Source of the DNA: Thermobifida alba
GTDB taxonomy: Bacteria > Actinomycetota > Actinomycetes > Streptosporangiales > Streptosporangiaceae
Length of the DNA stretch: 64,000 nt
Assembly (NCBI RefSeq): GCF_023208015.1
Contig: NZ_CP051627.1
Span: forward strand, 1,054,001-1,118,000
Direction: 5' to 3'
The position numbers and the translations under genes were made by a program. This document shows, one piece after another, positions 19,337 to 40,985 of the stretch (positions are counted from its first letter, which is position 1; each line of letters opens with the position of its first letter). The notes beneath the pieces were generated by a model. That model had not been told where the DNA came from and made no database searches. It saw nothing but the letters and a program-made list of their open reading frames with translations.

Positions 19337-19371
19337 AGGACGCGAAGGGCACGACAGGGAACGAGGAGACG

Positions 19372-20220: not shown

Positions 20221-20228
20221 GGAACGCC

Positions 20229-23428: not shown

Positions 23429-24724
23429 ATGGTCACACGACGTGGAAGCAAGGACGCCGCTCCCAGAGCGTCCTGGGTCGCGCTCGGCGTGGTGGGCGCA
23501 CTGGCCCTCACCGGCTGCGCCGAGACCGGAACCGGCGCCGGCGGCGGCTCCGGCCAGGGCGTCGAGTACGGGGCCAGCATGGAGGAGTACCACGCGGCCT
23601 TCGCCGACGTGGAGCCCATCACGCTGACCACGCAGAGCCCCGCCCCCAAGGGCTCGATCACCGGAGCCAACGTGGAGGCCTACTTCGAGGCCCTCACCGA
23701 GTGGTCCGACGGCAAACTGCAGTTCGACATCGCCTACTCCAACGCGATCGTGGAGCCCGCCGAGGCCGACGACGCACTCATCGACGGCCGCCTCGACATC
23801 GCCCAGGTCCTGCCGATCTACGAGCCGTCGGAGTACCCGGCCAACGCCGCCCTCATCGAGGCCAGCTTCCTCTCCGACCACAGCGTCGTCGTCGGCGCGC
23901 TGCAGTCCAACGCCTGGCCGCTGGAGACCGCCTTCGACACCCCCGAGATCCTGCAGGAGTACGAGGACAAGGGCATCAAGCTGATGATGCCGTCCTACAA
24001 CTCCGGCTCCAACGCGCTGTTCTGCAGCAAGGAGCGCCGCAGCCTCGACGACCTCAAGGGCATGCAGGCCGCGGCCGGCGGCCAGGCCCAGAGCAAGGAG
24101 ATCGAGGCGCTGGGCGGCTCCGCCGCGTCCGTCGCCTACCCCGAGCTGTACGAGAGCCTGCAGCGCGGCGTCGTCGACTGCAGCGTCTCCAGCCTCACCG
24201 TGGGCGTGCTCGGCGGGTTCATCGAGGCCGCCCCGCACGTCGTGGTCGACCCCGACGCGGGCTTCGCGCTGGCCCCCGGCGGCATGGCGGTCAGCCAGGC
24301 CACCTGGGACTCGCTGCCGCTGGTGGCCCGGCAGCTGATGTGGGACCGCCTGGACGTCTTCCTGACCAGCAACATCGCCGACAAGATCTGGCCGAACATC
24401 GTCGAGGCCTCCACGCAGGTCGCCGAGGCCGGCGGCTCGATCGAGGTCTTCGAGGACGACGCCCGCAAGGCCCTCAACAAGGCCAACGCCGAACTCCTGG
24501 AGGACCTGCGCGGTACCCCGGCGATCGCCGACGGGGACGCGTTCGTCGACCGGATGGAAGAGTCGGCCGCCAAGTGGCTGCAGATCGTCGAGGAGGACCT
24601 CGGCTACACCAACGAGACCGACTACAACGGCTTCGCCGACTGGTACACCGCCGACGCGGTCGACCTGGAGCCCTACGTCACCCGGGTGTACGAGGAGATC
24701 CTCCTGGAGCACCGCCCCTCCTGA
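23429..24724 (+). CDS. TRAP transporter substrate-binding lipoprotein (DctP family)
   Basis: A 431-residue secreted lipoprotein. The signal ends in the lipobox LALTGC at about residue 30, followed by a Gly-rich linker. The body shows DctP-family features: TTQSPAPKGS, EWSDGKLQFDIAYSNAI, DDALIDGRLDIAQVLP, and RRSLDDLKGMQ before the ligand-binding region. It captures an organic anion outside the membrane for the DctQ-DctM proteins encoded next. The ATG follows GGAG by eight bases. A close paralogue lies at 33459. Confidence 0.9.
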   Translation: MVTRRGSKDAAPRASWVALGVVGALALTGCAETGTGAGGGSGQGVEYGASMEEYHAAFADVEPITLTTQSPAPKGSITGANVEAYFEALTEWSDGKLQFDIAYSNAIVEPAEADDALIDGRLDIAQVLPIYEPSEYPANAALIEASFLSDHSVVVGALQSNAWPLETAFDTPEILQEYEDKGIKLMMPSYNSGSNALFCSKERRSLDDLKGMQAAAGGQAQSKEIEALGGSAASVAYPELYESLQRGVVDCSVSSLTVGVLGGFIEAAPHVVVDPDAGFALAPGGMAVSQATWDSLPLVARQLMWDRLDVFLTSNIADKIWPNIVEASTQVAEAGGSIEVFEDDARKALNKANAELLEDLRGTPAIADGDAFVDRMEESAAKWLQIVEEDLGYTNETDYNGFADWYTADAVDLEPYVTRVYEEILLEHRPS

Positions 24725-24822
24725 CCCCGCACCCCCGCATCCGCGTCCGGGGCGGGCGACCCCGCCCCGGACCCCCTCCCCTCCCGTTCTCTCTCTTCCG
24801 ACCCCAGCCCCGCGGAGAAGCC

Positions 24823-25359
24823 ATGACCGCACCACCGGCTCCGAAAGGCCGCCGCGTCATCGAACTGCTCATCGAGGTGCCGGCCGTCACCGTGACGTTC
24901 GTGATGATGCTCCACATCACGGCCAACGCCCTGCTGCGCTCCTTCGCCAACAGCCCGCTGCCCAACACGTTGGAGTACGTGCAGTACTGGTACATGCCGA
25001 TCGTCGCGTTTCTCGGCTTCGTCGCCGCGCAGCTGCGCGGCCAGCACATCGCCGCGGACCTGGTCTTCCGGATGCTGCCCCGGTCGACCAAGCCCTACGT
25101 CACCGCGGTCGGCTGCGCGGCGAGCGCGCTGATGGCCGCGGGATTCGCCTGGTACGGCTGGGGCGAGGCCGTGCACGCCTGGGAGATCACGATGACCGCG
25201 GGCGTCAGCGACGTGATCTCCTGGCCCACCTACTTCCTGGTTCCCCTCGCCTTCGCCAGCCTGACCGTGCAGTTCGCGTGGGCCACGGTCCAGGCCGTCC
25301 GCAACCCCGAGGCCGACGACGCCGACGAGTCGTCGGGCGCCGAGACCACCTCCGTGTAG
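24823..25359 (+). CDS. TRAP transporter small permease (DctQ family)
   Basis: A 178-residue membrane protein with four hydrophobic segments (about 20-40, 55-75, 95-115, 130-155) and the DctQ hallmark YVQYWYMPIVAFLGFVAAQLRGQHIAADL. It couples the binding protein to the large permease. Its ATG lies 98 bases after the DctP stop and follows CGGAGAAGCC. Length and topology are normal for the family. Confidence 0.88.
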   Translation: MTAPPAPKGRRVIELLIEVPAVTVTFVMMLHITANALLRSFANSPLPNTLEYVQYWYMPIVAFLGFVAAQLRGQHIAADLVFRMLPRSTKPYVTAVGCAASALMAAGFAWYGWGEAVHAWEITMTAGVSDVISWPTYFLVPLAFASLTVQFAWATVQAVRNPEADDADESSGAETTSV

Positions 25360-25375
25360 TGGGAGGGAGAAGACC

Positions 25376-26896
25376 ATGACGAGCGCAACCCAGACCGACC
25401 CGGCGCTGGACGACAACGGGCAACCGCGGGCCGGCAGGCAGAACGGGGCCGCCCCCGAGGGACGCCGACCGTGGATCGTGGCCGCGGTCACCCTGGTCGT
25501 CCTCGTCGGCTCCGCGATCTGCGTGATGCTTCCCCTGGTCCCCGAGGCGATCGGGATCATGGCCTGCGTCATGATGCTGGCCCTGCTCTTCCTGCGGGTC
25601 CCCGTCGCCGTGGCGATGATCATCCCCTCGCTGCTGGGCCTGTACGCCCTGCGGGGCATGCCGCTCATCGAGAGCACCCTGAGCAAACTGGCCTACAACG
25701 GCGTGTCCAACTGGACCCTCAGCGTGGTCCCGATGTTCGTCCTCATGGGCCTGCTGCTGTGGCGCTCGGGCCTGACCGACGGCATCTACCTGGCGGGCCG
25801 CAAGTGGCTCAACTGGCTGCCCGGCGGCCTGGCCGTGGGCACCAACGTCGCCGGCGCGGGACTGGCCGCGGTCAGCGGCTCCTCCGTCGGCACCGCCTAC
25901 GCCCTGGCCCGCATGGGCATCCCCGAGATGCTCAAGGCCGGATACGACCGCCGCATGGCCATCGGCGCGGTGATCGTCGCGGGCCTGCCCGGACAGCTCA
26001 TCCCGCCCAGCATCATGCTGGTCATCTACGCCGGCATCGCCGAGGTCCCCATCGGCCCCCAGCTGCTCGCCGGCATCGGCCCCGGCCTGCTCGTGGCCGT
26101 CATGTTCACCCTGATGATCATCGCCTTCGCCGTCGCCAAGCCGGAACTGGTGGGCAGGGCCAGAGGTGTCGCCGCCGAACGGGAGAAGATCTCCTGGGGC
26201 GAGCGCCTGATGAGTCTGGTGCGGATCTGGCCCGTGCCGGTGCTGATCCTCCTCATCATCATCGGCATGTTCTCCGGCGTGTTCACCGCCACCGAGGTGG
26301 GCGCCGCCGCCGCCCTGTTCTCCGTCGTCATCGCCCTCGTCTGGAAACGCCGGGACCGGCCGTTCGCCGCGATCGTCGAGTCGGCGGTCGCCACCGTCAG
26401 CAGCGTCGGCGCGATCTTCTTCATCCTCGTCGCCGCCGCGGCCCTGACCAGCCTGCTCACCCTCACCGGCATCAGCACCGGAATCGCCGACCTGATCGAG
26501 GGCCTGGGCCTGGGCCGCATCCAGTTCCTGCTGGTCATGGTGGTGGTCTACCTCATCCTCGGCATGTTCATGGAGCCCATGGCGATCATGGTCCTGACCA
26601 TCCCGATCCTGATCCCCACCCTGCACTCGCTCGACATCTCCCTGATGTGGTTCGGCGTGTTCACCGTCTTCATGGGCGAGCTGGCGGTGGTCACCCCGCC
26701 CGTCGGCATCCTCTCCTTCATCATCCACGGAATGGTCAAGGACCCCGAGGTCAACATGGGGCACAAGATCACCCTCAAGGACGTGTTCGTCTCCGTCGGA
26801 TGGTTCCTGCCCATGTCGATCGCGGTGGCCGTGATCCTCATCCTCGTCCCGGAGATCGCCACCTTCATCCCCGACCTCGCATCCGCACAGAAGTAG
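25376..26896 (+). CDS. TRAP transporter large permease (DctM family)
   Basis: A 506-residue polytopic membrane protein, rich in hydrophobic segments from residue 35 on. Family signatures include SGSSVGTAYALARMGIPEM, VAGLPGQLIPPSIMLVIYAG and ILGMFMEPMAIMVLTIPIL. It forms the sodium-driven transport channel of the TRAP importer. The ATG follows GGGAGGGAG, 16 bases after dctQ. A charged, unusually long N-terminal tail of about 35 residues precedes the first span. Confidence 0.92.
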   Translation: MTSATQTDPALDDNGQPRAGRQNGAAPEGRRPWIVAAVTLVVLVGSAICVMLPLVPEAIGIMACVMMLALLFLRVPVAVAMIIPSLLGLYALRGMPLIESTLSKLAYNGVSNWTLSVVPMFVLMGLLLWRSGLTDGIYLAGRKWLNWLPGGLAVGTNVAGAGLAAVSGSSVGTAYALARMGIPEMLKAGYDRRMAIGAVIVAGLPGQLIPPSIMLVIYAGIAEVPIGPQLLAGIGPGLLVAVMFTLMIIAFAVAKPELVGRARGVAAEREKISWGERLMSLVRIWPVPVLILLIIIGMFSGVFTATEVGAAAALFSVVIALVWKRRDRPFAAIVESAVATVSSVGAIFFILVAAAALTSLLTLTGISTGIADLIEGLGLGRIQFLLVMVVVYLILGMFMEPMAIMVLTIPILIPTLHSLDISLMWFGVFTVFMGELAVVTPPVGILSFIIHGMVKDPEVNMGHKITLKDVFVSVGWFLPMSIAVAVILILVPEIATFIPDLASAQK

Positions 26897-28113: not shown

Positions 28114-28329
28114 GTGCGTATCTCCATCGACGCCGCCAAGTGCATGGGCCACGGCCGCTGCTACGCGGTCGCCCCCGACCTGCTCTCCGACGACGAGCAG
28201 GGCTTCGTCGCCCAGAGCGGCCAGACCCTGGAGGTTCCCGAGAACCTGCGCGACCAGGCCCGCGAGGCCGTCGACGCCTGCCCCGAGTCGGCGATCTCCC
28301 TGCCGGAGACCACGACCGCCGATGCTTGA
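28114..28329 (+). CDS. [3Fe-4S] ferredoxin, P450 partner
   Basis: A 71-residue ferredoxin. The cluster motif is CMGHGRC (about residues 11-17) with a distant CPES; a His stands where a fourth Cys would be in 4Fe-4S proteins, the usual mark of P450-linked 3Fe-4S ferredoxins. It would pass electrons to the P450 encoded five bases upstream. It starts with GTG and ends inside the start of the next gene. Confidence 0.92.
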   Translation: MRISIDAAKCMGHGRCYAVAPDLLSDDEQGFVAQSGQTLEVPENLRDQAREAVDACPESAISLPETTTADA

Positions 28330-29551
28330 ACACCTCCGCGTCCTCGACCTGACCGACGAGCGGGGACTGCTGTGCGGCCGGCTGCTCGCCGACCTGGGAG
28401 CGGACGTGGTCCAACTGGAACCCCTCACCGGCTCCGGTGCGCGGTCGGCCCCGCCGACCGCGCACGGCGGGACCGGTCCGTCGATGTTCTGGGAGACCTT
28501 CGCCGCCAACAAACGCGGCGTCGCCCTGGACCTCGACAGCGACGAGGGACTGGCCGCCGCACGTGAACTGGCCGGCCGCGCCGACATCGTGGTGACCTCG
28601 CTGCCCGCGGCCTGGCTGCGGGAGCGCGGCCTGGACCCCGACACGCTGCGCGCCGCCCACCCGCACCTGGTCTACACGGTGATCAGCGCGTTCGGCTGGT
28701 CCGGCCCCAAGGCCGACTACGCCGACTGCGACCTCGTCGTCTGGGCGGCGGGCGGCCCGCTGGACCCGCACCGCGACGAGGAGCGCCCGCCGCTGCGCAT
28801 CAGCGTCCCCCAGGCGTTCCTGCACGCCTCCGCCGACGCCGCGGCGGGCGCCCTGATCGCGGTCCTGGGCCGCGCGGCGACCGGGCGGGGGCAGGTCGTC
28901 GACGTCTCCGCGCAGGCGAGCCTGGGCACCGCCACCCTCGCGCGGGTGCTCGCCCACGCGGTGGGCGACGCCCAGCCGGAGTGGCACCGCCAGCCCGTGG
29001 CCGGCAAGGACCAGAGCGGCAGCGGCGCGGCCACCCCCAACCGCCTCAAGAAGTGGCGGTGCGCCGACGGCATGGTGGAACTCCACCTGTCCATGGGACC
29101 GGCCTCCGGCGAGTTCACCAACCGCCTCTTCGCCTGGCTGCGCTCCGAGGGCGCGGTCAGCGACCGCATCGCCGCCTGGGACTGGAAGACGCTGCCCCAG
29201 CGCATCGCCGCGGGCGAGATCACCGACGCCGACCTGGACGAGGCGCGCGCCGCGGTCGGCGGCTTCCTCGCCACCCTCACCAAGGAGCAGGTGCTCCAGG
29301 CCGCCATGGAGCACCGGCTGCTGTGCATGGCGATCTACGACATGGGCGACATCGCCGCCAGCCCGCACCTGGCCGAACGCGACTACTGGGCGCAGGTCGA
29401 CATCGACGGCGTCGCCGTCCGCATCCCCAGCGCGATCGCCCGCGTCGGCGGAGGCGCACAGCCCGGCGTGCGGCGCCGAGCCCCCCGCCTCGGCGAGCAC
29501 ACCGCCGAGGTCCTCGCCGACTGGCTGACCACGACGGAGGTGAACGGATGA
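28322..29551 (+). CDS. Class III (CaiB/BaiF) CoA-transferase, first copy
   Basis: A 409-residue member of the CaiB/BaiF family, which moves CoA between carboxylates. It opens with LRVLDLTDERGLLCGRLLADLGADVVQLEP, has FAANKRGVALDLDSDEG, and SADAAAGALIAVLGR, where the Asp fits the catalytic Asp position. It overlaps the ferredoxin stop and the next CoA-transferase start. Divergent tandem copies like these often form one heteromeric enzyme, as for benzylsuccinate CoA-transferase. Confidence 0.88.
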   Translation: MLEHLRVLDLTDERGLLCGRLLADLGADVVQLEPLTGSGARSAPPTAHGGTGPSMFWETFAANKRGVALDLDSDEGLAAARELAGRADIVVTSLPAAWLRERGLDPDTLRAAHPHLVYTVISAFGWSGPKADYADCDLVVWAAGGPLDPHRDEERPPLRISVPQAFLHASADAAAGALIAVLGRAATGRGQVVDVSAQASLGTATLARVLAHAVGDAQPEWHRQPVAGKDQSGSGAATPNRLKKWRCADGMVELHLSMGPASGEFTNRLFAWLRSEGAVSDRIAAWDWKTLPQRIAAGEITDADLDEARAAVGGFLATLTKEQVLQAAMEHRLLCMAIYDMGDIAASPHLAERDYWAQVDIDGVAVRIPSAIARVGGGAQPGVRRRAPRLGEHTAEVLADWLTTTEVNG

Positions 29552-30768
29552 CCCGGCCGCTGGCCGACCTGAAGGTCCTGGACCTGTCCTGGGTGGTGGC
29601 CGGACCGCTGATCGGACGGGCCCTCGCCGACTTCGGGGCGCAAGTGGTGCGCGTGGAGTCCAGCCGCCGCGTGGAGACCGCCCGCCTCATGCAGCCCTTC
29701 CACCGGGGCGAGGCGGGCGTGGAGAACTCCGCGCTGTACGGCAACTGCAACGCCGGGAAACTCGGGATGACCGTCGACCTGAAGACCGAGGAGGGGCGCG
29801 GGATCGTCCGCGACCTCGCGCGCTGGGCCGACGTGGTCGTCGAGTCCTTCTCCCCCGGGCAGATGGCCAAGTGGGGGCTGGACTACGCCGAACTGGCCCG
29901 CGACAACCCCTCGCTCATCATGCTCAGCACGTCGATCGCGGGCCAGTCCGGGCCGTGGGCGGCACTCGCCGGCTACGGCAACGTCGGCGCGTCGCTGAGC
30001 GGGTTCCAGAACCTCGTCGGCTGGGAGGACCGGCAGCCGATGGGCCCGTTCGGCCCCTACACCGACTACGTCGGCCCGCGGCTGGCCCTGGTGACGCTGC
30101 TCGCCGCGGTCGAGCACCGCCGCCGCACCGGGCAGGGGCGCCATATCGACGTCGCGCAGGTGGAGGCCGGGATCTTCTTCCTGTCCCCGCAGGTGGCCCA
30201 CCACGGCTTCGACGGCACCGTCGCCCGGCGCCGCGGCAACCGCGACGAGGTGTTCGCGCCGCACGGCGTCTACCCGTGCCTGGCCGAGGACGGCCGGGAC
30301 CGCTTCGTCGCCCTGGCCGCACGCGACGACGCGGAGTGGGTCCGGCTGGCCGAGGCCATGGGCCGCGCCGACCTGGCCGAACGCGCCGACCTGCGCACCG
30401 CCGAACAGCGGCGCGCCCGCGCCGACCTGCTCGACGAGCAGATCGCGCGGTGGACCTCCGGCCGGCGCGCCGAGGACGTCGAACGGTGCCTGCAGGCGGT
30501 TGGCGTGCCCGCGCACCGCTCCGCCTCCAGCGCCGACTTCGTCGCCGACGAACAGCTCGCCCACCGCGGCCACGTCGTGCGGCTGCCGCACCCGCTGCAC
30601 GGCGAGACGGTGGTGGAGGGGCCGCGCTACCTGCTTTCGGACACGCCCGGCGAGGTCACCCGAGCGGCGCCGACGCTGGGCCAGGACAACGAGTACGTGC
30701 TGCGCGACATCCTCGGCTACCCCGCCGAGCGGATCGCGCAGCTGGTGAAGGACGGAGTGCTGGTATGA
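29548..30768 (+). CDS. Class III (CaiB/BaiF) CoA-transferase, second copy
   Basis: A 406-residue CaiB/BaiF protein. It has LKVLDLSWVVAGPLIGRALADFGAQVVRVE, GNCNAGKLGMTVDLKTEEGR, and GPYTDYVGPR with the likely catalytic Asp near residue 173, followed by GRHIDVAQVEAG. The ATG overlaps the previous stop (ATGA) and the stop overlaps the next start. It is divergent in sequence from the neighbour copy, which argues for a two-subunit enzyme rather than a recent duplication. Confidence 0.9.
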   Translation: MTRPLADLKVLDLSWVVAGPLIGRALADFGAQVVRVESSRRVETARLMQPFHRGEAGVENSALYGNCNAGKLGMTVDLKTEEGRGIVRDLARWADVVVESFSPGQMAKWGLDYAELARDNPSLIMLSTSIAGQSGPWAALAGYGNVGASLSGFQNLVGWEDRQPMGPFGPYTDYVGPRLALVTLLAAVEHRRRTGQGRHIDVAQVEAGIFFLSPQVAHHGFDGTVARRRGNRDEVFAPHGVYPCLAEDGRDRFVALAARDDAEWVRLAEAMGRADLAERADLRTAEQRRARADLLDEQIARWTSGRRAEDVERCLQAVGVPAHRSASSADFVADEQLAHRGHVVRLPHPLHGETVVEGPRYLLSDTPGEVTRAAPTLGQDNEYVLRDILGYPAERIAQLVKDGVLV

Positions 30769-31361
30769 CCGGCAGTAGGCGGACCGAGGACTGGAAGGCC
30801 GAGTGGCAGCCCGTCATCGACGCGGTGGGCCGCGACTTCTCCTCGGGGCAGACCGTCTTCGGGGCCGACCCGGTCGAACGCGGAGCGATCCGCCGCTACC
30901 TGGAGCCGCTGGAGTTCGACTGTGCGCTGCACACCGACCCCGAGGCGGCCCGCGCCGCGGGCTTCGACGACGTCACCATGCCCTACACCGGGGTCCTCAC
31001 CTGGACGATCCCGCCGATGTGGCGTCCCGGCGAGGTGCTGTTCGACAGCGACGAACGCGACGCCCAACCGGTGCGCACGCCCATCAACAACCAGGACATG
31101 CCCCTGGGCCCGAAGACCACCGGATTCTTCGGCACCGACATCGACATCGACTTCGTCCGCCCGGTCGTGGCGGGGGAGCGCATCGGCCGCCGCGGCAACC
31201 GGCTGCTGTCGTGCGTGCCCAAGGAGACCTCGGTCGGCCGCGGCGCCTTCCTGAAGTGGGAGAGCGACGTGGTGACCGAGAGCGGCGAGGTCGTCGCGCG
31301 GATCCGCATCGGCACCTACGCCTACGTGCCCAAGAACGAGACCGAGGCGAGTGATGACTGA
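30765..31361 (+). CDS. MaoC-type N-terminal hot-dog (FAS1-like dehydratase) protein
   Basis: A 198-residue protein resembling the N-terminal hot-dog domain of MaoC/FAS1-like dehydratases. Visible segments are ADPVERGAIRRYLEPLEFD, DVTMPYTGVLTWTIPPMW and IDFVRPVVAGERI. This half usually shapes the acyl-CoA tunnel and lacks catalytic residues; the catalytic half would be the next gene. The pair resembles the split hydratases of steroid side-chain and 3-hydroxypropionate pathways. Translationally coupled on both sides. Confidence 0.82.
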   Translation: MTGSRRTEDWKAEWQPVIDAVGRDFSSGQTVFGADPVERGAIRRYLEPLEFDCALHTDPEAARAAGFDDVTMPYTGVLTWTIPPMWRPGEVLFDSDERDAQPVRTPINNQDMPLGPKTTGFFGTDIDIDFVRPVVAGERIGRRGNRLLSCVPKETSVGRGAFLKWESDVVTESGEVVARIRIGTYAYVPKNETEASDD

Positions 31362-31812
31362 CACCGCAGCGCGGCAGCGCTACTTCGAGGACGTGGCGGT
31401 CGGCGAGGAGCTGCCGAGCGTCGCCTACCCGCTGAACGTCTACCGGCTGGTGATGGCGGCGGGGTCCAACCGCGACTTCAACTCCATCCACCACAACACC
31501 GAGTACGCGCGCCGCACCGGCGCCAAGGAGATGTACGCCAACACCTCCTTCCTGCTGAGCACCTGGGAGCGGTGCGTGCGCGACTGGATCGGCCCCGCCG
31601 GGACGATCCGCAGCATCCGCGGCTTCCGGATGCGGTCGTTCAACTACGTCGGCGACACCCTGCGCGTCCACGCCAGCGTCGCCGACGCCCGCGTCGAGGA
31701 CGGCGCGGGCGTGGTCGAGATCGCGATCAGGGGCGAGAACTCGTCCGGGGTCAGCGTCGGGCCGGGCACCGTGGAGGTCACGCTGCCGCGGCGCGGAGAG
31801 GAGCAGGAGTGA
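31354..31812 (+). CDS. MaoC-like enoyl-CoA hydratase
   Basis: A 152-residue single hot-dog protein. The hydratase-2 segment appears as AAGSNRDFNSIHHNTEYARRTGAKEMYANT, with the Asp and His of the D-x4-H motif at about residues 41 and 46. RGFRMRSFNYVGDTLRVHASV completes the fold. It should hydrate a 2-enoyl-CoA together with the N-terminal-type protein encoded upstream. A GTG at 31351 is an alternative start. Confidence 0.87.
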   Translation: MTDTAARQRYFEDVAVGEELPSVAYPLNVYRLVMAAGSNRDFNSIHHNTEYARRTGAKEMYANTSFLLSTWERCVRDWIGPAGTIRSIRGFRMRSFNYVGDTLRVHASVADARVEDGAGVVEIAIRGENSSGVSVGPGTVEVTLPRRGEEQE

Positions 31813-32978
31813 ACGTCACCCCCACCGCCATCGCCGGACTCGGCATGACCGAACTGGGCAGGGTCTACGGGCGCACCCCCGCCCAGTTCGCGCTGGAGGC
31901 CGTCACCCGGGCCGCCGCCGACGCGGGCCTGACCCTGGACGACATCGACGGACTGCTGGTCAACCCCGGCGTCAACAACGACACCGACCTGCGGTTGCAG
32001 TCCACCCTGCAGCTGCGCGACCTGCGGCTGCTGTCGACCGTCCAGGGCTTCGGGTCCTCGGCGATCCAGATGGTGCAGTACGCGTCGATGGCGATCTCCG
32101 CCGGGATGGCGGACGTGGTCGCGTGCGTCTACGCCGACGCGCCCCTGAAGGAGGGCAAGGGCAGCGGCGCCGCCTACGCGGGCGGCGGCCGCGCGCTCAG
32201 CGGGGTGGAGTCCCTGCCCGCCGCCGCGGGACTGAAGTCCGCCCCGGCCCGCTACGCCGTCGCGGCCCGCCGCCACATGGAGACCTACGGCACCACCAGC
32301 GAGCAGCTGGGCGCGATCGCGGTCGCCGCCCGCGCCTGGGCGGCGATGAACCCGTTGGCGCAGATGCGGGAGCCGATCACCCTGGAGGACCACCAGAACT
32401 CGCGGATGATCGCCGACCCGCTGCGGCTGCTCGACTGCTGCCTGGTCAGCAACGGCGCCATCGCGGTCATCGTCACCAGCGCCGAGCGCGCCGCCGACCT
32501 GGCCCAGCCGCCGGTGCACGTGTGGGGCTGGGGGCAGTCGCACCCCGGCTACGCCAACCACCGCGGCAGCGACTTCGGCCTGGTCAGCGGCGCCGCCCAG
32601 GCGGGCCCGGCGGCGCTGAAGATGGCCGGGGTCACCGTCGACGACATCGACATCCGCGAGATCTACGACTGCTTCACCTACACCACCCTGATCACCCTGG
32701 AGGACTACGGGTTCTGCGCCAAGGGCGAGGGCGGGGAGTTCGTGGCCAGCGGCGCGCTGGCCCCCGGCGGCAGCCACCCCACCAACACCGGCGGCGGCGA
32801 ACTGTCGTCGTACTACATGTGGGGGATGACCCCGCTGTCGGAGGCGGTGATCCAGGCGCGCGGCCAGGGCGGGCAGCGCCAGGTCGCCAAGAACGACCTC
32901 ATCATGGTGAGCGGCAACGGCGGGGTCCTCGACTTCCACGCCACGCTCATCGTCAGCCCGCACGCCAGGACCGCATGA
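31809..32978 (+). CDS. Thiolase-fold protein, probable acyl-CoA retro-aldolase (Ltp2-like)
   Basis: A 389-residue thiolase-superfamily/lipid-transfer-like protein. The fold is clear (IAGLGMTELG, RAAADAGLTLDDIDGLLV, TNTGGGELSSYYMWG). The catalytic residues of thiolases are absent: GFGSS (80-84) has no nucleophile Cys, the GHP histidine position reads SYYMWG (Tyr335/Tyr336), and the C-terminal Cys is Ser368. Ltp2 steroid side-chain aldolases are thiolase relatives that use tyrosines and need a DUF35 partner; a DUF35 gene follows here. I infer C-C cleavage of a 3-hydroxy- or beta-branched acyl-CoA rather than thiolysis. Confidence 0.82.
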   Translation: MNVTPTAIAGLGMTELGRVYGRTPAQFALEAVTRAAADAGLTLDDIDGLLVNPGVNNDTDLRLQSTLQLRDLRLLSTVQGFGSSAIQMVQYASMAISAGMADVVACVYADAPLKEGKGSGAAYAGGGRALSGVESLPAAAGLKSAPARYAVAARRHMETYGTTSEQLGAIAVAARAWAAMNPLAQMREPITLEDHQNSRMIADPLRLLDCCLVSNGAIAVIVTSAERAADLAQPPVHVWGWGQSHPGYANHRGSDFGLVSGAAQAGPAALKMAGVTVDDIDIREIYDCFTYTTLITLEDYGFCAKGEGGEFVASGALAPGGSHPTNTGGGELSSYYMWGMTPLSEAVIQARGQGGQRQVAKNDLIMVSGNGGVLDFHATLIVSPHARTA

Positions 32979-32992
32979 GCATGGGAGCCGAG

Positions 32993-33397
32993 ATGAGTCT
33001 GACCCCCGTCGTCCGCGACGAGTACTCCGCCCCGTTCTTCGACGGCGCCGCACGGGGCGAGCTGATGCTGCGCTACTCGCCGAGCAGCGGCGCCTGGTCG
33101 CCGCCGGAGGCCCGGGTGTGCGCGACGTCGCGGGCCGCCGACCTGGAGTGGCGCGCCGCCTCCGGGGAGGGGGCGCTGGTCAGCTGGACGGTCATCCCGG
33201 GGCGCTCCCGGGGCGGCCGTCCCGCGGCCGACACGGTCGTGGGGATCGTGGAGACGGCGGAGGGACCGTGGCTGACGCTGCGGATCGTCAACGCCGAGGA
33301 GGTGGCCCCCGCCGCGGGCGCCGCGGTGCGGGTGGAGTTCGTCCGCCCCGAGGGCGGGGAGTCCGTCCCGGTGGCGCGGCTCGTCGCCGGGTCCTGA
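32993..33397 (+). CDS. DUF35 OB-fold protein, partner of the aldolase
   Basis: A protein of about 134 residues. The C-terminal part (GALVSWTVIPG, TVVGIVETAEGPWLTLRIV, GAAVRVEFVRPEG) fits the DUF35 OB fold that binds acyl-CoA. The usual N-terminal zinc ribbon is reduced to one Cys (ARVCATS), so metal binding is unlikely. ATG 32993 was chosen for the GGGAG before it; an ATG at 32975 overlapping the upstream stop would add six residues. Such proteins stabilise Ltp2-type aldolases. Confidence 0.8.
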   Translation: MSLTPVVRDEYSAPFFDGAARGELMLRYSPSSGAWSPPEARVCATSRAADLEWRAASGEGALVSWTVIPGRSRGGRPAADTVVGIVETAEGPWLTLRIVNAEEVAPAAGAAVRVEFVRPEGGESVPVARLVAGS

Positions 33398-33458
33398 GCG
33401 GCCCGCGACCGCCGGGACCAGCTGTTTCGCTGTTGTCTGTGTGGGAGGGAGAATCACG

Positions 33459-34754
33459 GTGTTTGCAACGGGGAGGACGGGACGCGCAAGGCCGCTGCGG
33501 GCCGCGGCGCTGCTGGCGGCCGCGGCGCTCGTGGCCACCGGGTGCGCCGAGGGCGGCTCCGGCGGCAACGGCGGCGGCGGGCGGTCCGTCGACTACGGCG
33601 CCTCCAAGGAGGAGTACGCCGCCGCGCTGGCGGACATGGCGCCGGTGACGCTGACCCTGCAGAGCACCGCCCCCAAGGGGGCGGCCACGGGGCGGCGCTT
33701 CGAGGAGTACGCCGCGGCGGTGGAGGAGTGGTCCGACGGCAAGATCACCTTCGAGATCGTCTTCTCCAACGCGATCGCCCCCGCCAACGAGGTCGACGAC
33801 GCGCTCGCCGACGGCCGGCTCGACGTCGGCTCGGTCATGCCGTCCCTGGAGCCCGCGGAGTTCCCCGCCAACAACGTCATGTGGGACGTGAGCTTCGTCG
33901 GCCGCCAGACCCCCGTCGACGGCCTGCTGCAGTGGCACGGCGCGGTGCTGGAGGCCGCGGTCCAGGAGGACGCCCTCTACCAGGAGTTCGAGGAACGGGG
34001 CATGAAGCTGCTGCTGCCCGCGTTCCAGTCCGGCGCCATCGCCTACTCCTGCACCAGTGAGCGCGCCGACCTGGACGCGTTGGACGGCGCCACGATCGCC
34101 TCGCAGAGCCGGGTGCAGAACGACCAGGTCCGGGCGCTGGGCATGCAGCCGTCGACGGTCAACTACACCGAGATGTTCGAGAGCCTGGAGCGGGGCGTGG
34201 TCGACTGCACCCTCGGCACGTTCACCGTCGCCGCCCTCAACGGCTACATCCCCTCCGCCCCCTACTTCGTCGTCGACCCCGAGGTCGGCTTCGGCAACGC
34301 GGGCGGGTCGATCGCGATCAGCCTCAACACCTGGGAGTCGCTTCCGCTGGCCGCCCAGCAGCTGCTGTACGACCGGCTGGACGTGCTGCTGGCGGTGAAC
34401 TACGAGGCCACCTGGGACAACATCGCCGACAGCCTGCAGCAGGTGGAGGAGAACGACGGCGCGGTGCTGCCGCTGGCCGGGGACGCGCGCGAGGCGCTGG
34501 CCGCCTACAACGAGCAGGCCCTGGTCGAGGCCGCGGACAGCGCGGCGATCGGCGACGGCGAGGCGTTCGTCGCCACCCTCGAACAGGCCCTGGAGGAGTG
34601 GACGGACAAGGTCGAGCAGACCGCCCCGGGGCTCGACGTCGGATACGACGAGTTCCTGGAGTGGTACGAGCAGGACCAGCCCGACCTGCAGGCCTACTTC
34701 GACCAGCTGTGGAGCGACGCGATGCAGCAGCGCCGCCCCGGCAACGACGCCTGA
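33459..34754 (+). CDS. Second TRAP substrate-binding lipoprotein (DctP family), orphan
   Basis: A 431-residue lipoprotein, the same length as the DctP at 23429 and clearly paralogous (VDYGASKEEYAAALADM, EWSDGKITFEIVFSNAI, DDALADGRLDVGSVMP). The lipobox is LVATGC. The GTG at 33459 follows GGGAGGGAG. No dctQ or dctM follows, so it must share the permeases encoded at 24823-26896 or act as a sensor. Two binding proteins bracket the P450/CoA-transferase/aldolase genes, which suggests uptake of two related substrates. Confidence 0.88.
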   Translation: MFATGRTGRARPLRAAALLAAAALVATGCAEGGSGGNGGGGRSVDYGASKEEYAAALADMAPVTLTLQSTAPKGAATGRRFEEYAAAVEEWSDGKITFEIVFSNAIAPANEVDDALADGRLDVGSVMPSLEPAEFPANNVMWDVSFVGRQTPVDGLLQWHGAVLEAAVQEDALYQEFEERGMKLLLPAFQSGAIAYSCTSERADLDALDGATIASQSRVQNDQVRALGMQPSTVNYTEMFESLERGVVDCTLGTFTVAALNGYIPSAPYFVVDPEVGFGNAGGSIAISLNTWESLPLAAQQLLYDRLDVLLAVNYEATWDNIADSLQQVEENDGAVLPLAGDAREALAAYNEQALVEAADSAAIGDGEAFVATLEQALEEWTDKVEQTAPGLDVGYDEFLEWYEQDQPDLQAYFDQLWSDAMQQRRPGNDA

Positions 34755-34837: not shown

Positions 34838-35761
34838 CTAGCCGCGGGCGGTCAGGGCACGCAGCGCGGCGACCAGGTCGTCGACGGCCGCGCGCGCGGC
34901 GGGCACGACCCGGGTGAAGCGGAAGAAGCCGTGGACGAGGGACGGGTACTCCGCGAGCGTGGCGTCGACCCCGGCCGCGCGCAGCCGTTCGGCGTAGGCG
35001 ACGCCCTCGTCGCGCAGCGGGTCGTGCCCGGCGACGACGACGTGGGCGGGCGGCAGCCCGGCCAGGTCGTCGCGCAGCGGGGAGGCGGTCGGCAGGTCCC
35101 GTCGTGCGACGTCGGGCAGGTAGTGGTCCCAGAACCAGCGCATCGCCGCGGCCCCGATGGGGAAGGCCGCGGCGTGGGTCCGGTAGGAGCCGCGGGTGAA
35201 GTCGTGGTCGGTCACCGGATAGACGAGCAGTTGGAAGTCCAGCCGCGGCCCGTGTTCGTCGCGGGCGCGCAGGGTGCAGGCCGCGGCGAGGTTGCCGCCA
35301 GCGCTGTCCCCGCCCACCCCCAGCGGTCCGTTCCCGGCGATCTCGGCGGCGACGTGCCGCAGCGCGGCGTAGGCGTCGTCCAGGGGGGTGGGGAAGGGGT
35401 GTTCGGGGGCGAGCCGGTAGTCGACGCTCACCACGGTCCAGTCGAGCCGGTCGGCGATGAAACGGCACAGTTCGTCGCAGTAGTCGAGGTCACCGGTGAC
35501 CCAGCCGCCGCCGTGCAGGTAGACGAGTGTGGCCTGCGGCGCGCGGTGGGGGGAGTAGACGCGCGCGCCGATCGTGCCGTCGGCCACGGGAATGCGGATG
35601 TCGTCGACCGAGCGCAGTTCGGGGCCGTCGGCGCAGGAGCCGTGGCCCGCGGCCACGCGGGCACGGGCCTCGGCCGGGGTGAGGGTGTGCAGGGGAGGGG
35701 CCGCCACGGCGGCCGCGGCGGCGGCCAGGGTGGCGATCGCGGGGTCCACGGGGGCGGGCAT
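34838..35761 (-). CDS. Alpha/beta hydrolase, hormone-sensitive-lipase family
   Basis: A 307-residue esterase. The oxyanion motif is HGGGW (about residue 82), the nucleophile elbow GDSAGG (about 147), with the Asp in AGHDPLRDEG and the His in SLVHGFF. Such enzymes hydrolyse short-chain or bulky esters. The ATG at 35761 follows GGAGG; an upstream ATG at 35788 lacks a ribosome site. It diverges from the flavin reductase at 35906 over an AT-rich promoter and could act on the ester made by the Baeyer-Villiger enzyme encoded at 39293-40921 (inference). Confidence 0.9.
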   Translation of the reverse strand: MPAPVDPAIATLAAAAAAVAAPPLHTLTPAEARARVAAGHGSCADGPELRSVDDIRIPVADGTIGARVYSPHRAPQATLVYLHGGGWVTGDLDYCDELCRFIADRLDWTVVSVDYRLAPEHPFPTPLDDAYAALRHVAAEIAGNGPLGVGGDSAGGNLAAACTLRARDEHGPRLDFQLLVYPVTDHDFTRGSYRTHAAAFPIGAAAMRWFWDHYLPDVARRDLPTASPLRDDLAGLPPAHVVVAGHDPLRDEGVAYAERLRAAGVDATLAEYPSLVHGFFRFTRVVPAARAAVDDLVAALRALTARG

Positions 35762-35788
35762 CGAACCTCCGGGGGGTGGAGACGTCAT

Positions 35789-35860
35789 TTCTCGGATATA
35801 AAAATCCTTTAATTATTTTAATTTTAATGATAGTAACTAATTTATGCCAGTGGGTGTCCG
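35789..35860. promoter_or_regulatory. AT-rich divergent promoter region
   Basis: A patch of over 50 bases is mostly A/T, with GGAT-N6-ATCC and TTAATTATTTTAATTTTAA. Against a background above 70% GC it marks the promoters and likely operator of the hydrolase and the flavin oxidoreductase. No single -10/-35 pair is decisive. Confidence 0.5.
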
Positions 35861-35905
35861 GTTCCGACGTGACCGGCTGACTTTCCCTCCAGAAAGGCGC
35901 CTCTC

Positions 35906-37876
35906 ATGACAACGCGGGAAACGACACGGTTCCCCCACCTGTTCACCCCCGTCCGCGTGGGCCGGATGGAGCTGCCCAACCGGATCATGGCCACGCCGCA
36001 CGCCACCCCGATCGGCAACCTGTGGAGCCCCGACGAGGCGGAGGCCGACCGCAACATCGCCTACTGGGCGGCCCGGGCCCGCGCCGGACTGGGCTGGGTG
36101 GGAGGAATCAGCGCAGCCCTGGAGAACCGCCTGGTCCCCGGCTTCGAACCCACCGGCGTGGGCGCGGCCGCCCACGGGGTGTTCCGCCTGCCCCACTTCC
36201 ACGACCGCATCCGCAAGCTCACCGACACCCTGCACGAGGCGGGAGCCCGCGTCACCGCGCAGATCATCATGCAGGGCGGCATGCCGCACGGCCCCTCGCC
36301 CACGGTCACCGCCTACGTCGCCAACCAGGTCTCCCACGCCCTCGACCGCGACGAGATCGCCTGGTTCGTCAACGAGTACGCCGAATCGGCCCGGCGCGGC
36401 AAGGAAGCGGGCCTGGACGGCGTCGAACTGCACGCCAACCACGACGACCTGCTCGAATGGTTCCTCTCCCCGGCCTCCAACCACCGCGAGGACGAATACG
36501 GCGGCGACCTGGCGGGGCGGATGCGCTTCCTCACCGAGATCATCGACGCCATCCGCGCCGAGGTCGGCTCCGACTTCACCCTGGGCGTGCGGATGAACCT
36601 CTACCAGGCCCTCGACGGCGGCTACGACGCGGCCGGAGGCGTGGAGATCGCCAGGGCCCTGGAAGCCACCGGCAAGATCGACTACCTGTCGGTCGTCGTC
36701 GGCGACAACTGGGGCGCCCCCAGCTACATCCAGCCCCACCACTACCGGCGGGCCCAGTGGGCGGACCTGGCCGCGCAGGTCACCAGGGCCGTCTCCCTGC
36801 CCGTCGTCTACACCGGCCGGGTCAGCGACCCGCAGACCGCCGAGGAGGTCATCGCCCGGGGACAGGCGGACCTGGTCGGCATGGCCCGCGCCATCATCAC
36901 CGACCCCGAGATCGTCGCCAAGGCCGCCCGGGGCCGCGTCCACGAGATCCGCCCCTGCATCGGCTGCAACGAGTGCATCCACCGCCGCCTCGTCGACAAG
37001 CTCCCCTTCGCCTGCGCGGTCAACCCGCACGCCTCCCGCGAGATCGACGGCCCCCTGCCCCCGGCCCGCTCCCCCCGGCACGTCCTGGTGGTCGGCGGCG
37101 GCCCCGCCGGCATGGAACTGGCCGGACTGCTCGCCGAACGCGGACACCCGGTCACCCTGTGGGAACGCGAGGAGGAACTGGGCGGCCAGATGCGCGTCGC
37201 GGCCCGCGCCGCCGAGAACGCCGCCTACCGCGACTTCATCGCCTGGCAGGAGGGACGGCTGCGCCGCGCGGGCGTCGCGGTGGAGCTCGGCCGCACCGCC
37301 ACCGCCGACGACGTGCTGGCCTTCGGCGCCGACGTGGTCGCCGTGGCCACCGGAGCGGCCCCCCGCCGCCTGGCCGTCCCCGGCGCGGACGCCCCCTTCG
37401 TCGTCGACGGCCGCGCCGCGCTGACCAGGGCGGCACCGGTCGGCGAACGCGTCGTGGTCGTCGCCGCCGAGGACCACATGCAGCCGCTGAGCATCGCCGG
37501 ACACCTCACCGACCACGGCCACCGGGTGCACCTCGTCTACCAGACCCCCGGCCCCGCCCCGCTCGTCGGCAAGTACAGCATCGGCGCCCCGCTGGCCAAG
37601 CTCACCGCAGCGGGCGCGGAGTTCACCTTCATGAGCCGGGTGGTGCGCATCGAGGAGGACCGGCTGCGGATCCGCAACGTCTACTCCGACACCCCCGGGG
37701 AGATCACCGGCTTCGACAGCGTGGTCGTGGCAGCCGGGGGCGTGCCCGACGACGGCCTCTACCACGAGCTGAAACGGCGCGGCGGAGTCGAGGTGCACCT
37801 GCTCGGCGACGCCTACGCACCCCGGCGGATCACCTTCGCCACCCAGCAGGCCCACGCGCTCGCCGCGCTCGTCTAG
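35906..37876 (+). CDS. OYE/2,4-dienoyl-CoA reductase-type NADH:flavin oxidoreductase
   Basis: A 656-residue enzyme with three parts: an FMN TIM barrel (LFTPVRVGRMELPNRI, GVELHANHDDLLEWFLSPASNHREDEYGG), a cysteine cluster (CIGCNECIHRRLVDKLPFAC, about residues 352-371) for 4Fe-4S binding, and C-terminal FAD/NAD domains (VLVVGGGPAGMELAGLLAERG). The family reduces activated C=C bonds or demethylates N-methyl compounds. In this catabolic setting reduction of an unsaturated ring or enoyl-CoA is likely. The ATG follows AGAAAGG. The alcohol dehydrogenase gene follows. Confidence 0.92.
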   Translation: MTTRETTRFPHLFTPVRVGRMELPNRIMATPHATPIGNLWSPDEAEADRNIAYWAARARAGLGWVGGISAALENRLVPGFEPTGVGAAAHGVFRLPHFHDRIRKLTDTLHEAGARVTAQIIMQGGMPHGPSPTVTAYVANQVSHALDRDEIAWFVNEYAESARRGKEAGLDGVELHANHDDLLEWFLSPASNHREDEYGGDLAGRMRFLTEIIDAIRAEVGSDFTLGVRMNLYQALDGGYDAAGGVEIARALEATGKIDYLSVVVGDNWGAPSYIQPHHYRRAQWADLAAQVTRAVSLPVVYTGRVSDPQTAEEVIARGQADLVGMARAIITDPEIVAKAARGRVHEIRPCIGCNECIHRRLVDKLPFACAVNPHASREIDGPLPPARSPRHVLVVGGGPAGMELAGLLAERGHPVTLWEREEELGGQMRVAARAAENAAYRDFIAWQEGRLRRAGVAVELGRTATADDVLAFGADVVAVATGAAPRRLAVPGADAPFVVDGRAALTRAAPVGERVVVVAAEDHMQPLSIAGHLTDHGHRVHLVYQTPGPAPLVGKYSIGAPLAKLTAAGAEFTFMSRVVRIEEDRLRIRNVYSDTPGEITGFDSVVVAAGGVPDDGLYHELKRRGGVEVHLLGDAYAPRRITFATQQAHALAALV

Positions 37877-37880
37877 TCGC

Positions 37881-37925
37881 CGATGAGAGCACTGCGTTGT
37901 CCAGGTGATCGATGAGAGCACTGCG
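37881..37925 (+). repeat. Tandem duplication of a translation start
   Basis: CGATGAGAGCACTGCG occurs at 37881-37896 and again at 37910-37925, 29 bases apart. The second copy is the start of the alcohol dehydrogenase. The first opens a 10-codon frame whose TGA overlaps the real ATG (ATGA at 37912). Confidence 0.75.
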
Positions 37926-38958
37926 ATACGACGGCAAGGCACCGTACCTGGAGGAGGTCCCCGCCCCCACCGCCGGTCCCGGACAGGTGGTCCTGGAGGT
38001 CACCGGCGCCGGACTGTGCCACTCCGACCTGGCGGTGATGAGCCGCCCGCCGCAGGACCTGCCCTACGACCTGCCGATCACCCTCGGCCACGAGGCGGTC
38101 GGCGTGGTCGTGGACGTCGGCGCCGGGGTGCGCGGCCTGTCCGGGGGAGAGGAGGTCGCGGTGTACGGACCGTGGGGCTGCGGCGCCTGCCGCTCCTGCC
38201 TGGCCGGCGCGGAGAACCACTGCCCGTACGCCCGGGCGGCGGGCATCCTGCCGCCCGGGCTGGGGGCGGACGGCGCCCTCGCCGACTACCTCCTCGTCGA
38301 CCATCCCCGCCACCTGGTCCCCCTGGGCGGCCTCGACCCGGTCCGCGCCGCACCGCTGACCGACGCCGGACTGACCTCCTACCACGCGGTCAGGTCCGCG
38401 CTGCCCGGGCTGCCGCCCGACGGGACGGTCCTGGTGATCGGGATCGGCGGCCTGGGGCACGTGGCCGTCCAGATCCTGCGCGCGCTCAGCGCGGCGCGGA
38501 TCGTCGCGGTGGACCTGGCCGCCGACAAGCTGGACCTGGCGCTGCGGTGCGGCGCGGACTCGGCCCTGTTCGGCGACGACACCGTCCCCGAACAGGTGCG
38601 CGAGCTCACCGGCGGCGCCGGCGCCGACGTGGTCCTCGACTTCGTCGCCACCGACGCCACCCTGCGCACGGCCGCGCACAGCCTCCGCCCCGGAGGGGAG
38701 ATCAGCGTCGTGGGGGTCGGCAGCGGCCGGCTCCCGGTGGCCGTGAACCTGGTGCCCCTCGGGGCCACGGTGCGCACCCCCTACTGGGGGACCCGGTCCG
38801 ACCTGGTCGACGTCCTCGGCCTGGCCCGCGCGGGCCGGATCACGGTGGAGGTGGAGGAGTACCCGCTGGAGGAGGCGCTCCTGGCCTACGAGCGGCTGGA
38901 GCGCGGCCAGGTGCGTGGCCGGGCCGTGGTCACCCCCGCCCGCGCCGCCGACGGGTGA
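37912..38958 (+). CDS. Zinc-dependent alcohol dehydrogenase
   Basis: A 348-residue medium-chain dehydrogenase. Catalytic zinc: GAGLCHSD (about 37) and GHEAVG (about 60); structural zinc: CGACRSC with NHC; cofactor: GIGGLGHVA near 180. It oxidises a primary or secondary, possibly alicyclic, alcohol to the carbonyl. It follows the OYE-type reductase by 35 bases. Its start is duplicated upstream, creating a tiny coupled reading frame. With the Baeyer-Villiger enzyme next door, alcohol to ketone to lactone is a sensible order. Confidence 0.92.
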   Translation: MRALRYDGKAPYLEEVPAPTAGPGQVVLEVTGAGLCHSDLAVMSRPPQDLPYDLPITLGHEAVGVVVDVGAGVRGLSGGEEVAVYGPWGCGACRSCLAGAENHCPYARAAGILPPGLGADGALADYLLVDHPRHLVPLGGLDPVRAAPLTDAGLTSYHAVRSALPGLPPDGTVLVIGIGGLGHVAVQILRALSAARIVAVDLAADKLDLALRCGADSALFGDDTVPEQVRELTGGAGADVVLDFVATDATLRTAAHSLRPGGEISVVGVGSGRLPVAVNLVPLGATVRTPYWGTRSDLVDVLGLARAGRITVEVEEYPLEEALLAYERLERGQVRGRAVVTPARAADG

Positions 38959-39010
38959 GCCGCGGCGCGGTCCCCGCCGGGCGGCGTGCCCCGTGACGGG
39001 GAGGAAGGGC

Positions 39011-39228
39011 GCGGTGTCCGGGACCGGCTCTCCGGCCGCGGACACCGCCCCCGCCGCACGCGGGGGAGGTGTGCCCGCTGCGCGGTGGGCGGGCCGTCGG
39101 CCCGAGGAGGCCTCCTCCGGTGGCGGGTCGTTCCGGACGGCCGGGGAGAACGTCCCTGCGGGGACCGGCGGCGACCACCACGCGTCGCCGGGGGCGGCCT
39201 CCTCCCGGGGCCGGGCGCCGGGAGGAGG
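39011..39228. terminator. Hairpins in the gap between convergent genes
   Basis: The gap 38959-39292 has no convincing gene. It holds GCGGTGTCCG/CGGACACCGC (39011-39048) and CCTCCTCCCGG/CCGGGAGGAGG (39198-39228), facing the alcohol dehydrogenase and the minus-strand monooxygenase ends. Confidence 0.5.
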
Positions 39229-39292
39229 GACGGGGCCGGGGAGCTCCTCCCCGGCCACCCGCCCCTGCCGGACCGGACCCGGCGGGGTGTGC

Positions 39293-40985
<1,693 letters not shown>

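Follow-up and report, generated by a model that had tools for sequence, protein, structure and literature searches.

We analysed two adjoining genes of the thermophilic soil bacterium Thermobifida alba, one encoding a thiolase-fold protein of 389 residues and the other a DUF35 protein, which together are predicted to specify a retro-aldolase. Relatives of this pair serve bacterial ibuprofen and sterol degradation, and the Thermobifida genes stand in a little-studied cluster of their own. They lie in a stretch of 64,000 nucleotides (the window, by which we mean the whole stretch analysed) within the organism's 4.90-Mb, one-contig genome, as the final two genes of a tightly packed operon on the plus strand. 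According to the gene calls, all six junctions overlap from the ferredoxin gene (starting at 28114) through the DUF35 gene (ending at 33397), in the order ferredoxin, two CaiB-type coenzyme A (CoA) transferases (CaiB1 and CaiB2), a HadA-like and a HadB-like hydratase subunit, the thiolase-like protein and DUF35. The last two open reading frames, which overlap by 4 bases, are where a first-pass annotation, made from the sequence letters, had placed them. A cytochrome P450 gene lies directly 5' of this run, and a TRAP transporter lies 5' of the P450 (Table 1).

Fold and phylogeny of the aldolase

The only Pfam family above its curated cut-off in the thiolase-like protein was Thiolase_C_1, and the best sequence matches in the PDB were 4u4e (E 2.9e-72), Thermomonospora curvata Ltp2 (TcLtp2; 6ok1, 1.4e-66) and Comamonas testosteroni Sal (CtSal; 9myr, 1.9e-48). 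An AlphaFold model of the protein (pLDDT 89) had the Ltp2-DUF35 structure 6ok1 as its top match (Z 48.6, root-mean-square deviation (rmsd) 2.9 Å, 371 residues aligned) and the Sal-DUF35 structure 9myr as its second (Z 48.1, rmsd 3.0, 376 aligned), with 5ab7 (TbSLP; Z 47.8) nearly tied with both. Sequence identity is 38% to TcLtp2 and 34% to CtSal. The benzoylsuccinyl-CoA thiolase BbsAB (7pxp) likewise joins a thiolase fold to DUF35, but it is a true thiolase and only 26% identical. The closest relatives in our search belong to the window's own genus, with identities of 94% (genome G002) and 92% (genome G003 and the Thermobifida fusca protein).

We placed the protein in a quick tree and in a careful tree comprising 85 aldolases, of which 71 bore a DUF35 label; the careful tree omitted 28 locus rows (mostly near-duplicates, and L095, which has an in-frame stop), the plasmid row L136 and 7yvy. 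Both trees warn of long branches meeting and the placement of CtSal is uncertain, and our reading is limited to the separation of clades. The loci that share the operon formed one group with the window's genus in the careful tree (support 96/79), and TcLtp2 fell in a separate supported clade in both trees, which argues that the window protein is not an Ltp2 orthologue. We therefore rejected Ltp2 orthology, as the protein also carries the motif YDCF instead of YDHF with His296. A true thiolase or SCP2 thiolase was rejected as well, the protein being without the nucleophile Cys, HDCF or NEAF with the GHP His, and the second Cys. One relative in the trees, from a plasmid of Streptomyces sp. NBC_00564 (L140), has a YDP motif, ring-dioxygenase genes and a very long branch.

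A predicted active site that draws on both Sal and Ltp2

The first-pass annotation had described a thiolase fold with no nucleophile Cys, Tyr-Tyr at the His motif and a Ser at the second Cys, and alignment upheld each of these points. Gly82 stands opposite the nucleophile Cys of the P. furiosus thiolase 7yvy; the HDCF position is occupied by Tyr286-Asp287-Cys288, Tyr286 replacing the His; the GHP loop reads S334-Y335-Y336-M-W; and the region of the second Cys reads V367-S368-G369-N-G-G.

The same annotation had proposed comparing the tyrosines with those of Ltp2. In a multiple alignment (structure numbering), Tyr286 corresponds to TcLtp2 Tyr294 and CtSal Tyr302, Tyr336 to TcLtp2 Tyr344, and Gly82 to TcLtp2 Gly83 and CtSal Gly89. 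Arg199 corresponds to Arg203 (TcLtp2) and Arg216 (CtSal), Gly372 to CtSal Gly391, and Cys288 to TcLtp2 His296 and CtSal Cys304. According to excerpts of PMC12329534, Tyr294 serves as base and Tyr344 as acid in TcLtp2, while Tyr302 and Cys304 are catalytic in CtSal, where the C304A, C304S and C304H variants had no detectable activity. In the same excerpts, Gly replaces the thiolase Cys and Gln352 stands in CtSal for TcLtp2 Tyr344; in our MAFFT alignment, Tyr336 is instead opposite CtSal Thr355, owing to a 3-residue insertion.

Judged from these correspondences, the active site appears to combine Sal's Cys with Ltp2's second Tyr (Tyr-Cys-Tyr) and not to be a plain Ltp2 site. The likeness to Ltp2 drawn in the first-pass annotation thus stands in part: the top structural match and both tyrosines agree with it, but it overlooked the Sal-type Cys288 and the protein is not an Ltp2 orthologue. 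As for a Cys and His in the active site, which that annotation had said would contradict it, a Cys is present by homology (Cys288), and there is neither a His nor a nucleophile Cys.

Gly82, Arg199, Tyr286, Asp287, Cys288 and Tyr336 were invariant across all 90 clade rows (80 loci, nine further loci and the window, a few of them identical or of the same species), and this argues that the pattern is not due to chance. Gly82, Tyr286, Asp287, Cys288 and Tyr336 were likewise unchanged throughout the 74 rows that make up alignment A1 (73 of the 80 loci and the window; alignment A2 had 54 of 79). Among ten more distant rows, three had YDC with Tyr (L096, L099, L101), three YDA with His, one YDA with Tyr and three, which form TcLtp2's own group, YDH with Tyr; the YDC and Tyr combination is thus not unique to the clade. 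Since the clade holds the Sal and Ltp2 sets together in all 90 rows, it offers a means of testing which of the two residues acts as the acid and whether the ancestor already had both sets.

Loss of the zinc ribbon in the DUF35 partner

The partner protein has the N-terminal helix, hairpin and OB fold typical of the DUF35 family (by Pfam and model matches), the PF01796 match covering the OB part. It keeps the exact C-x2-C-x10-C-x2-C spacing of a zinc ribbon, but the four positions read Ser35, Ser38, Cys49 and Ser52; three of the four zinc ligands are gone, in agreement with the first-pass annotation, and one (Cys49) is left. The AlphaFold model of this protein matched 6htj (Z 16.3), 9myr_B (15.4) and 6ok1_D (14.9) and draws the ribbon region at a block pLDDT of 94-98, a shape that may be inherited, because the model's alignment includes zinc-bearing relatives. 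The solved DUF35 partners of Ltp2 and Sal bind zinc. By the account in excerpts of PMC6996347, so does every DUF35 protein characterised structurally by 2019. Sal's partner Shy has a C3H1 zinc finger, C-x3-H-x8-C-x2-C (PMC12329534), whereas the window DUF35 is without such a finger. That Cys3His1 pattern has been described as conserved only in Shy (PMC12329534); the ribbon of the L092 DUF35 also reads C-x3-H-x8-C-x2-C.

The four Cys are complete in 53 of the 88 DUF35 sequences encoded beside aldolase genes and incomplete in the other 35. All 21 from the operon clade (the window, L006-L022, L024, L087 and L088) belong to the latter; 19 of these 21 keep only the third Cys, L022 keeps none and two remain in register in L024. 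The careful tree calls for four or more changes of the strict C4 motif, a count without direction, in groups read as the operon clade, the IpfD group, a Saccharopolyspora/Rhodococcus pair and a Nocardia/Saccharopolyspora/Planotetraspora group. These are changes of the strict motif and not of zinc binding, because the label counts as lost both ribbons with three Cys and a His (Variovorax, Chelativorans, L092) and ribbons with three Cys (L024, L106); some of the rows so labelled may still bind zinc. The pattern suggests that the DUF35 zinc ribbon is dispensable and has been lost more than once.

The window DUF35 is free-standing, not fused to a MaoC domain and without a C4 ribbon, unlike the partner of Ltp2 proper. 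In ChsH2, the DUF35 domain is fused to MaoC. A natural fusion of another kind occurs in Spirillospora albida (L051, 7995-9629), where an aldolase and a zinc-type DUF35 form one frame of 544 residues.

Relatives of the pair on plasmids

By sequence, the nearest relative with a published role among those met is IpfD/IpfE. IpfD (395 residues; plasmid pIBU218 of Rhizorhabdus wittichii MPO218) is 54% identical to the window protein over 383 residues (52-54% across comparisons), and its gene lies between ring-dioxygenase genes and genes for DUF35 and a CoA ligase. The two proteins of that locus, WP_226949243.1 and WP_208634567.1, are named ipfD and ipfE in excerpts of PMC11347016. In those of PMC9195938, a transposon mutant of ipfD did not grow on ibuprofen, and the IpfD step is called a retro-aldolase reaction yielding propionyl-CoA and 4-isobutylcatechol. 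Since the hits given in PMC11347016 for IpfD and IpfE include ones named IgrF and IgrD, the kinship to the igr aldolase has been partly noted in print. Our literature search returned no paper with both ipfD and DUF35 among the matches listed.

IpfD-IpfE share with the window pair counterparts of Tyr286 and Tyr336 and a free-standing, ribbon-less DUF35. They differ in forming a separate subclade, in their DUF35 partner (only 32% identical) and in their surroundings, a CoA ligase and a ring dioxygenase adjoining ipfDE where the window has a CaiB pair, a hydratase and a P450. Plasmid relatives from Rhodococcus are closer than IpfD (59-65%). We viewed 13 annotated plasmid regions, among them two sharing their ipf proteins; 7 had a ring dioxygenase nearby and 1 had a P450-ferredoxin-reductase set. 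In the region from plasmid pR8L1 of Rhodococcus sp. 008 (L134), a P450, a ferredoxin and an FAD reductase lie directly 5' of the aldolase-DUF35 pair, which adjoins CoA ligases, an acyl-CoA dehydrogenase and alcohol and aldehyde dehydrogenases.

The operon and the wider cluster

The eight-gene operon (P450, ferredoxin, CaiB1, CaiB2, HadA, HadB, aldolase and DUF35) was complete, with its gene order unchanged, in all 18 related loci, from Thermobifida, Thermocatellispora, Nocardioides, Pimelobacter, Aeromicrobium, Actinomadura and Streptomyces. The two Streptomyces loci have a short-chain dehydrogenase/reductase (SDR) inserted between ferredoxin and CaiB1. With matches defined by tblastn at E <= 1e-8 and half coverage (DUF35 excepted), none of the 62 other loci, some of which have a short upstream flank, held the complete operon or a match to HadA, HadB or ferredoxin; one had a distant P450.

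CaiB1 and CaiB2 form a single frame in 10 of the 18 loci (L010, L012, L014, L016, L017, L019-L022, L024), and more distant CaiB pairs occur in 4 non-operon loci, which argues that the two act together. The benzylsuccinate operon, too, has paired CaiB transferases, BbsEF. The PDB chains matched by HadA and HadB (4w78 and 4wnb) are those of the ChsH1-ChsH2 hydratase, and the igr operon of Ltp2 holds a P450 and a ChsH-like hydratase, as the Thermobifida operon does.

Table 1. Positions in the window of the aldolase-DUF35 pair, its key codons and the surrounding genes
Feature	Position	Strand	Basis
Thiolase-fold protein, predicted retro-aldolase, 389 aa, GTG start	31809..32978	+	PF22691 1.5e-45; sequence and structure matches
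Gly82 codon, thiolase nucleophile position (TcLtp2 Gly83, CtSal Gly89)	32052..32054	+	Alignment
Tyr286-Asp287-Cys288 codons (TcLtp2 YDH 294-296; CtSal YDC 302-304)	32664..32672	+	Alignment
Tyr336 codon (TcLtp2 Tyr344; CtSal Gln352 according to PMC12329534, excerpts)	32814..32816	+	Alignment
Ser368 codon, region of second thiolase Cys	32910..32912	+	Alignment
DUF35/OB-fold partner without zinc ribbon, 140 aa, ATG start	32975..33397	+	Pfam, PDB sequence and model matches
Former zinc-ribbon stretch Ser35-x2-Ser38-x10-Cys49-x2-Ser52	33077..33130	+	Sequence; C4 consensus from PMC12329534 (excerpts)
HadB/ChsH1-like hydratase subunit	31351..31812	+	Best PDB matches 4wnb_B, 4w78_B, E about 9e-10
HadA/ChsH2-MaoC-like hydratase subunit	30765..31361	+	PF13452; only PDB matches 4w78_A, 4wnb_A, E 0.003
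CaiB-type CoA-transferase 2	29548..30768	+	PF02515
CaiB-type CoA-transferase 1	28322..29551	+	PF02515
Ferredoxin	28114..28329	+	PF13459
Cytochrome P450	26909..28108	+	Best PDB matches 8ckn, CYP143 (8amo), CYP101J2 (5kyo)
TRAP transporter DctP-DctQ-DctM, DctP and DctQ starts uncertain	23489..26896	+	Names from sequence; order common to relatives
Double-length acyl-CoA dehydrogenase, 716 aa	13922..16072	+	Pfam; C-terminal half best matches Tcur3483 (6wy8), 4x28
Aldehyde dehydrogenase (ALDH), SDR, ADP-forming acyl-CoA synthetase	17885..22370	+	Synthetase by NCBIfam; ALDH and SDR named from sequence
Second DctP-type binding protein	33441..34754	+	PF03480
Esterase (-), Old Yellow Enzyme (OYE)-type reductase (+), Zn-dependent alcohol dehydrogenase (ADH) (+), Baeyer-Villiger monooxygenase (BVMO) (-)	34838..40873	.	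Esterase and ADH named from sequence
Phenylacetone-monooxygenase orthologue (BVMO)	39293..40873	-	PDB 1w4x, 1092 bits

Beyond the operon, about 53 kb around it in Nocardioides sp. SLBN-35 and Pimelobacter simplex matches the window cluster (dehydrogenase 59%, ALDH 75%, SDRs 68-71%, ADP-forming ligase 66-67%, OYE 55-56%, ADH 49-51%, esterase 53-56%, BVMO 63-64%), with NMO matched, at 69%, in Pimelobacter and not in SLBN-35. Among 12 operon genomes probed, the acyl-CoA dehydrogenase was 87% identical in T. fusca and 57-63% in five more. In the other six (Thermocatellispora, three Actinomadura, two Streptomyces) the highest identity was only 39-42%, so the wider cluster is not common to all operon genomes. 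Pimelobacter genes unmatched by the window's gene calls encode a ferredoxin reductase, an enoyl-CoA hydratase, an AMP-ligase, a citrate-lyase-like protein and a true thiolase. Directly 5' of the TRAP genes, Pimelobacter simplex (L129:106-3248) also has a sulfatase and a formylglycine-generating enzyme, unmatched in the window, and Nocardioides has a protein with the same start as the sulfatase at the equivalent place. We found no mention of the operon in excerpts of a Nocardioides simplex transcriptome paper (PMC7593942).

A proposed retro-aldolase for branched acyl-CoA

We propose, with a probability of roughly 0.7, that the two proteins are subunits of a retro-aldolase of the Ltp2/Sal/IpfD kind, acting on a non-steroid, beta-branched acyl-CoA. 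The pair shows the structural and sequence traits of that group: a predicted Ltp2/Sal-like fold, Gly in place of Cys, by alignment the YDx Tyr with an acid counterpart, and a DUF35 gene alongside. The first-pass annotation had suggested an aldolase acting outside canonical sterol side-chain loss; in light of the fold matches, the kinship to IpfD and the presence of the operon in genomes without KshA_C, this is still the best reading.

In such a pathway, an organic acid would be imported by the TRAP transporter, possibly hydroxylated by the P450 and ferredoxin, and joined to CoA by the paired CaiB transferases. The acyl-CoA dehydrogenase would desaturate it and the ChsH-like HadA/HadB would hydrate the product. 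The beta-hydroxyacyl-CoA so formed would most likely have its hydroxyl at a tertiary position, on a branched or ring carbon, so that beta-oxidation could not give a 3-ketoacyl-CoA. The thiolase-fold subunit would then cut between C-alpha and C-beta: Tyr286 would take the proton of the beta-hydroxyl, an acyl-CoA enolate would leave, and re-protonation by Tyr336 and/or Cys288 would give acetyl- or propionyl-CoA and a ketone or aldehyde. The DUF35 subunit would brace the aldolase and the substrate pocket without zinc, and the carbonyl product could feed the BVMO and esterase, or the ALDH, of the same cluster.

A more speculative extension, and one we consider rather unlikely in its entirety, is a cycle for beta-methyl- or ring-branched acids, in which dehydrogenation, hydration to a tertiary beta-hydroxyacyl-CoA and retro-aldol cleavage by the Tyr-Cys-Tyr aldolase would yield acetyl-CoA and a methyl or ring ketone; Baeyer-Villiger oxidation by the adjacent BVMO and ester hydrolysis would follow, and the alcohol would return via ADH, ALDH and CoA ligation. 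If it holds, the cycle would be a natural pathway for phenylacetone monooxygenase, and zinc-free DUF35 proteins would constitute a separate class of aldolase subunit, arisen several times. The sharing of the cluster with Nocardioides and Pimelobacter points to a setting in which phenylacetone monooxygenase may naturally work. Thermostable enzymes of such a type are attractive in practice for breaking or making C-C bonds.

Several observations weigh against the proposed retro-aldolase or parts of it. IpfD reads YDA where the window protein reads YDC, i.e., without Cys at the Cys288 position, so Cys288 need not be catalytic. The uncharacterised, thiolase-like 4u4e from Sphaerobacter thermophilus is closer in sequence than Ltp2 or Sal (44% identity) and structurally as close (Z 47.5, rmsd 2.0 over 346 residues); it differs in having YDS and a His in the loop and in belonging to a separate clade. 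HadA resembles ChsH only weakly (E 0.003), and 5 of the 13 plasmid regions have neither a ring dioxygenase nor a P450. ALDH and BVMO fit different products, which leaves ketone and aldehyde both in play. Finally, of the 9 operon genomes in one KshA_C search, 7 gave a match (E 3e-83 or better in five, weaker or partial in the remaining two), and one relative of the BVMO acts on steroids; both points leave some probability for a steroid-like substrate.

Alternative explanations

The alternative that survives best, possible though well short of even odds, is an IpfDE-like deacylase, in which the P450 and not the hydratase would beta-hydroxylate an aryl- or cycloalkyl-acetic or -propionic acyl-CoA before the aldolase removes the side chain. 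IpfD's place as closest relative with a published role and the ring dioxygenases or P450-ferredoxin-reductase set beside plasmid relatives speak for it. However, two ChsH-like hydratase genes stand between the CoA-transferase and the aldolase in 18 of 18 operon loci, and the eight-gene operon is without a ring dioxygenase.

To a sterol or steroid side-chain aldolase, with the function of Ltp2 or Sal and a steroid substrate, we assign a low likelihood. The ChsH-, ChsE- and Ltp2-like gene content would suit it, genomes with a KshA_C match, e.g., Pimelobacter, carry the cluster, and steroid monooxygenase is the BVMO's next solved relative after phenylacetone monooxygenase. A profile search for KshA_C, however, gave no match in the genomes of T. 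alba, T. fusca and Actinomadura L017, all of which bear the operon. The HsaC-type dioxygenase had no match in the T. alba genome, E 8.7e-4 in T. fusca and 2e-19 in L017 (four matches), against 4e-96 to 2e-107 in three genomes whose KshA_C match is strong; as none of the six genomes brought the profile, TIGR03213, up to its curated cut-off, this contrast is one of E-values only. From these marker searches it follows that the operon is not tied to steroid-ring catabolism, which we dropped as the host pathway; this is no proof that a steroid is never used. Moreover, TcLtp2 belongs to another clade, the motif is YDC and not YDH, and the ribbon is lost here, whereas the zinc finger shapes Sal's steroid pocket (PMC12329534). 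The substrate is thus probably not a steroid.

It is very improbable that the protein is a cryptic thiolase or a PhlC-like acyl-transfer enzyme that forms C-C bonds: PhlABC has the same fold and also pairs it with DUF35, but all 90 clade rows have Gly82 where a thiolase has its nucleophile, the neighbours are catabolic and PhlC is distant in sequence (E 1.6e-13). A catalytically dead scaffold, which the disappearance of the thiolase residues might suggest, is if anything less credible still, given that Gly82, Arg199, Tyr286, Cys288 and Tyr336 are the same throughout those rows and the operon is kept in 18 of 18 loci.

Distribution of the operon

A search of the phylum with the DUF35 protein alone, in which at most 10 candidates per genome were scored among the matches listed, found matches at E <= 1e-12 in 5 of 396 genomes, namely the organism's own and four others (E 1e-21 to 5e-13), which hints that the operon may be uncommon.

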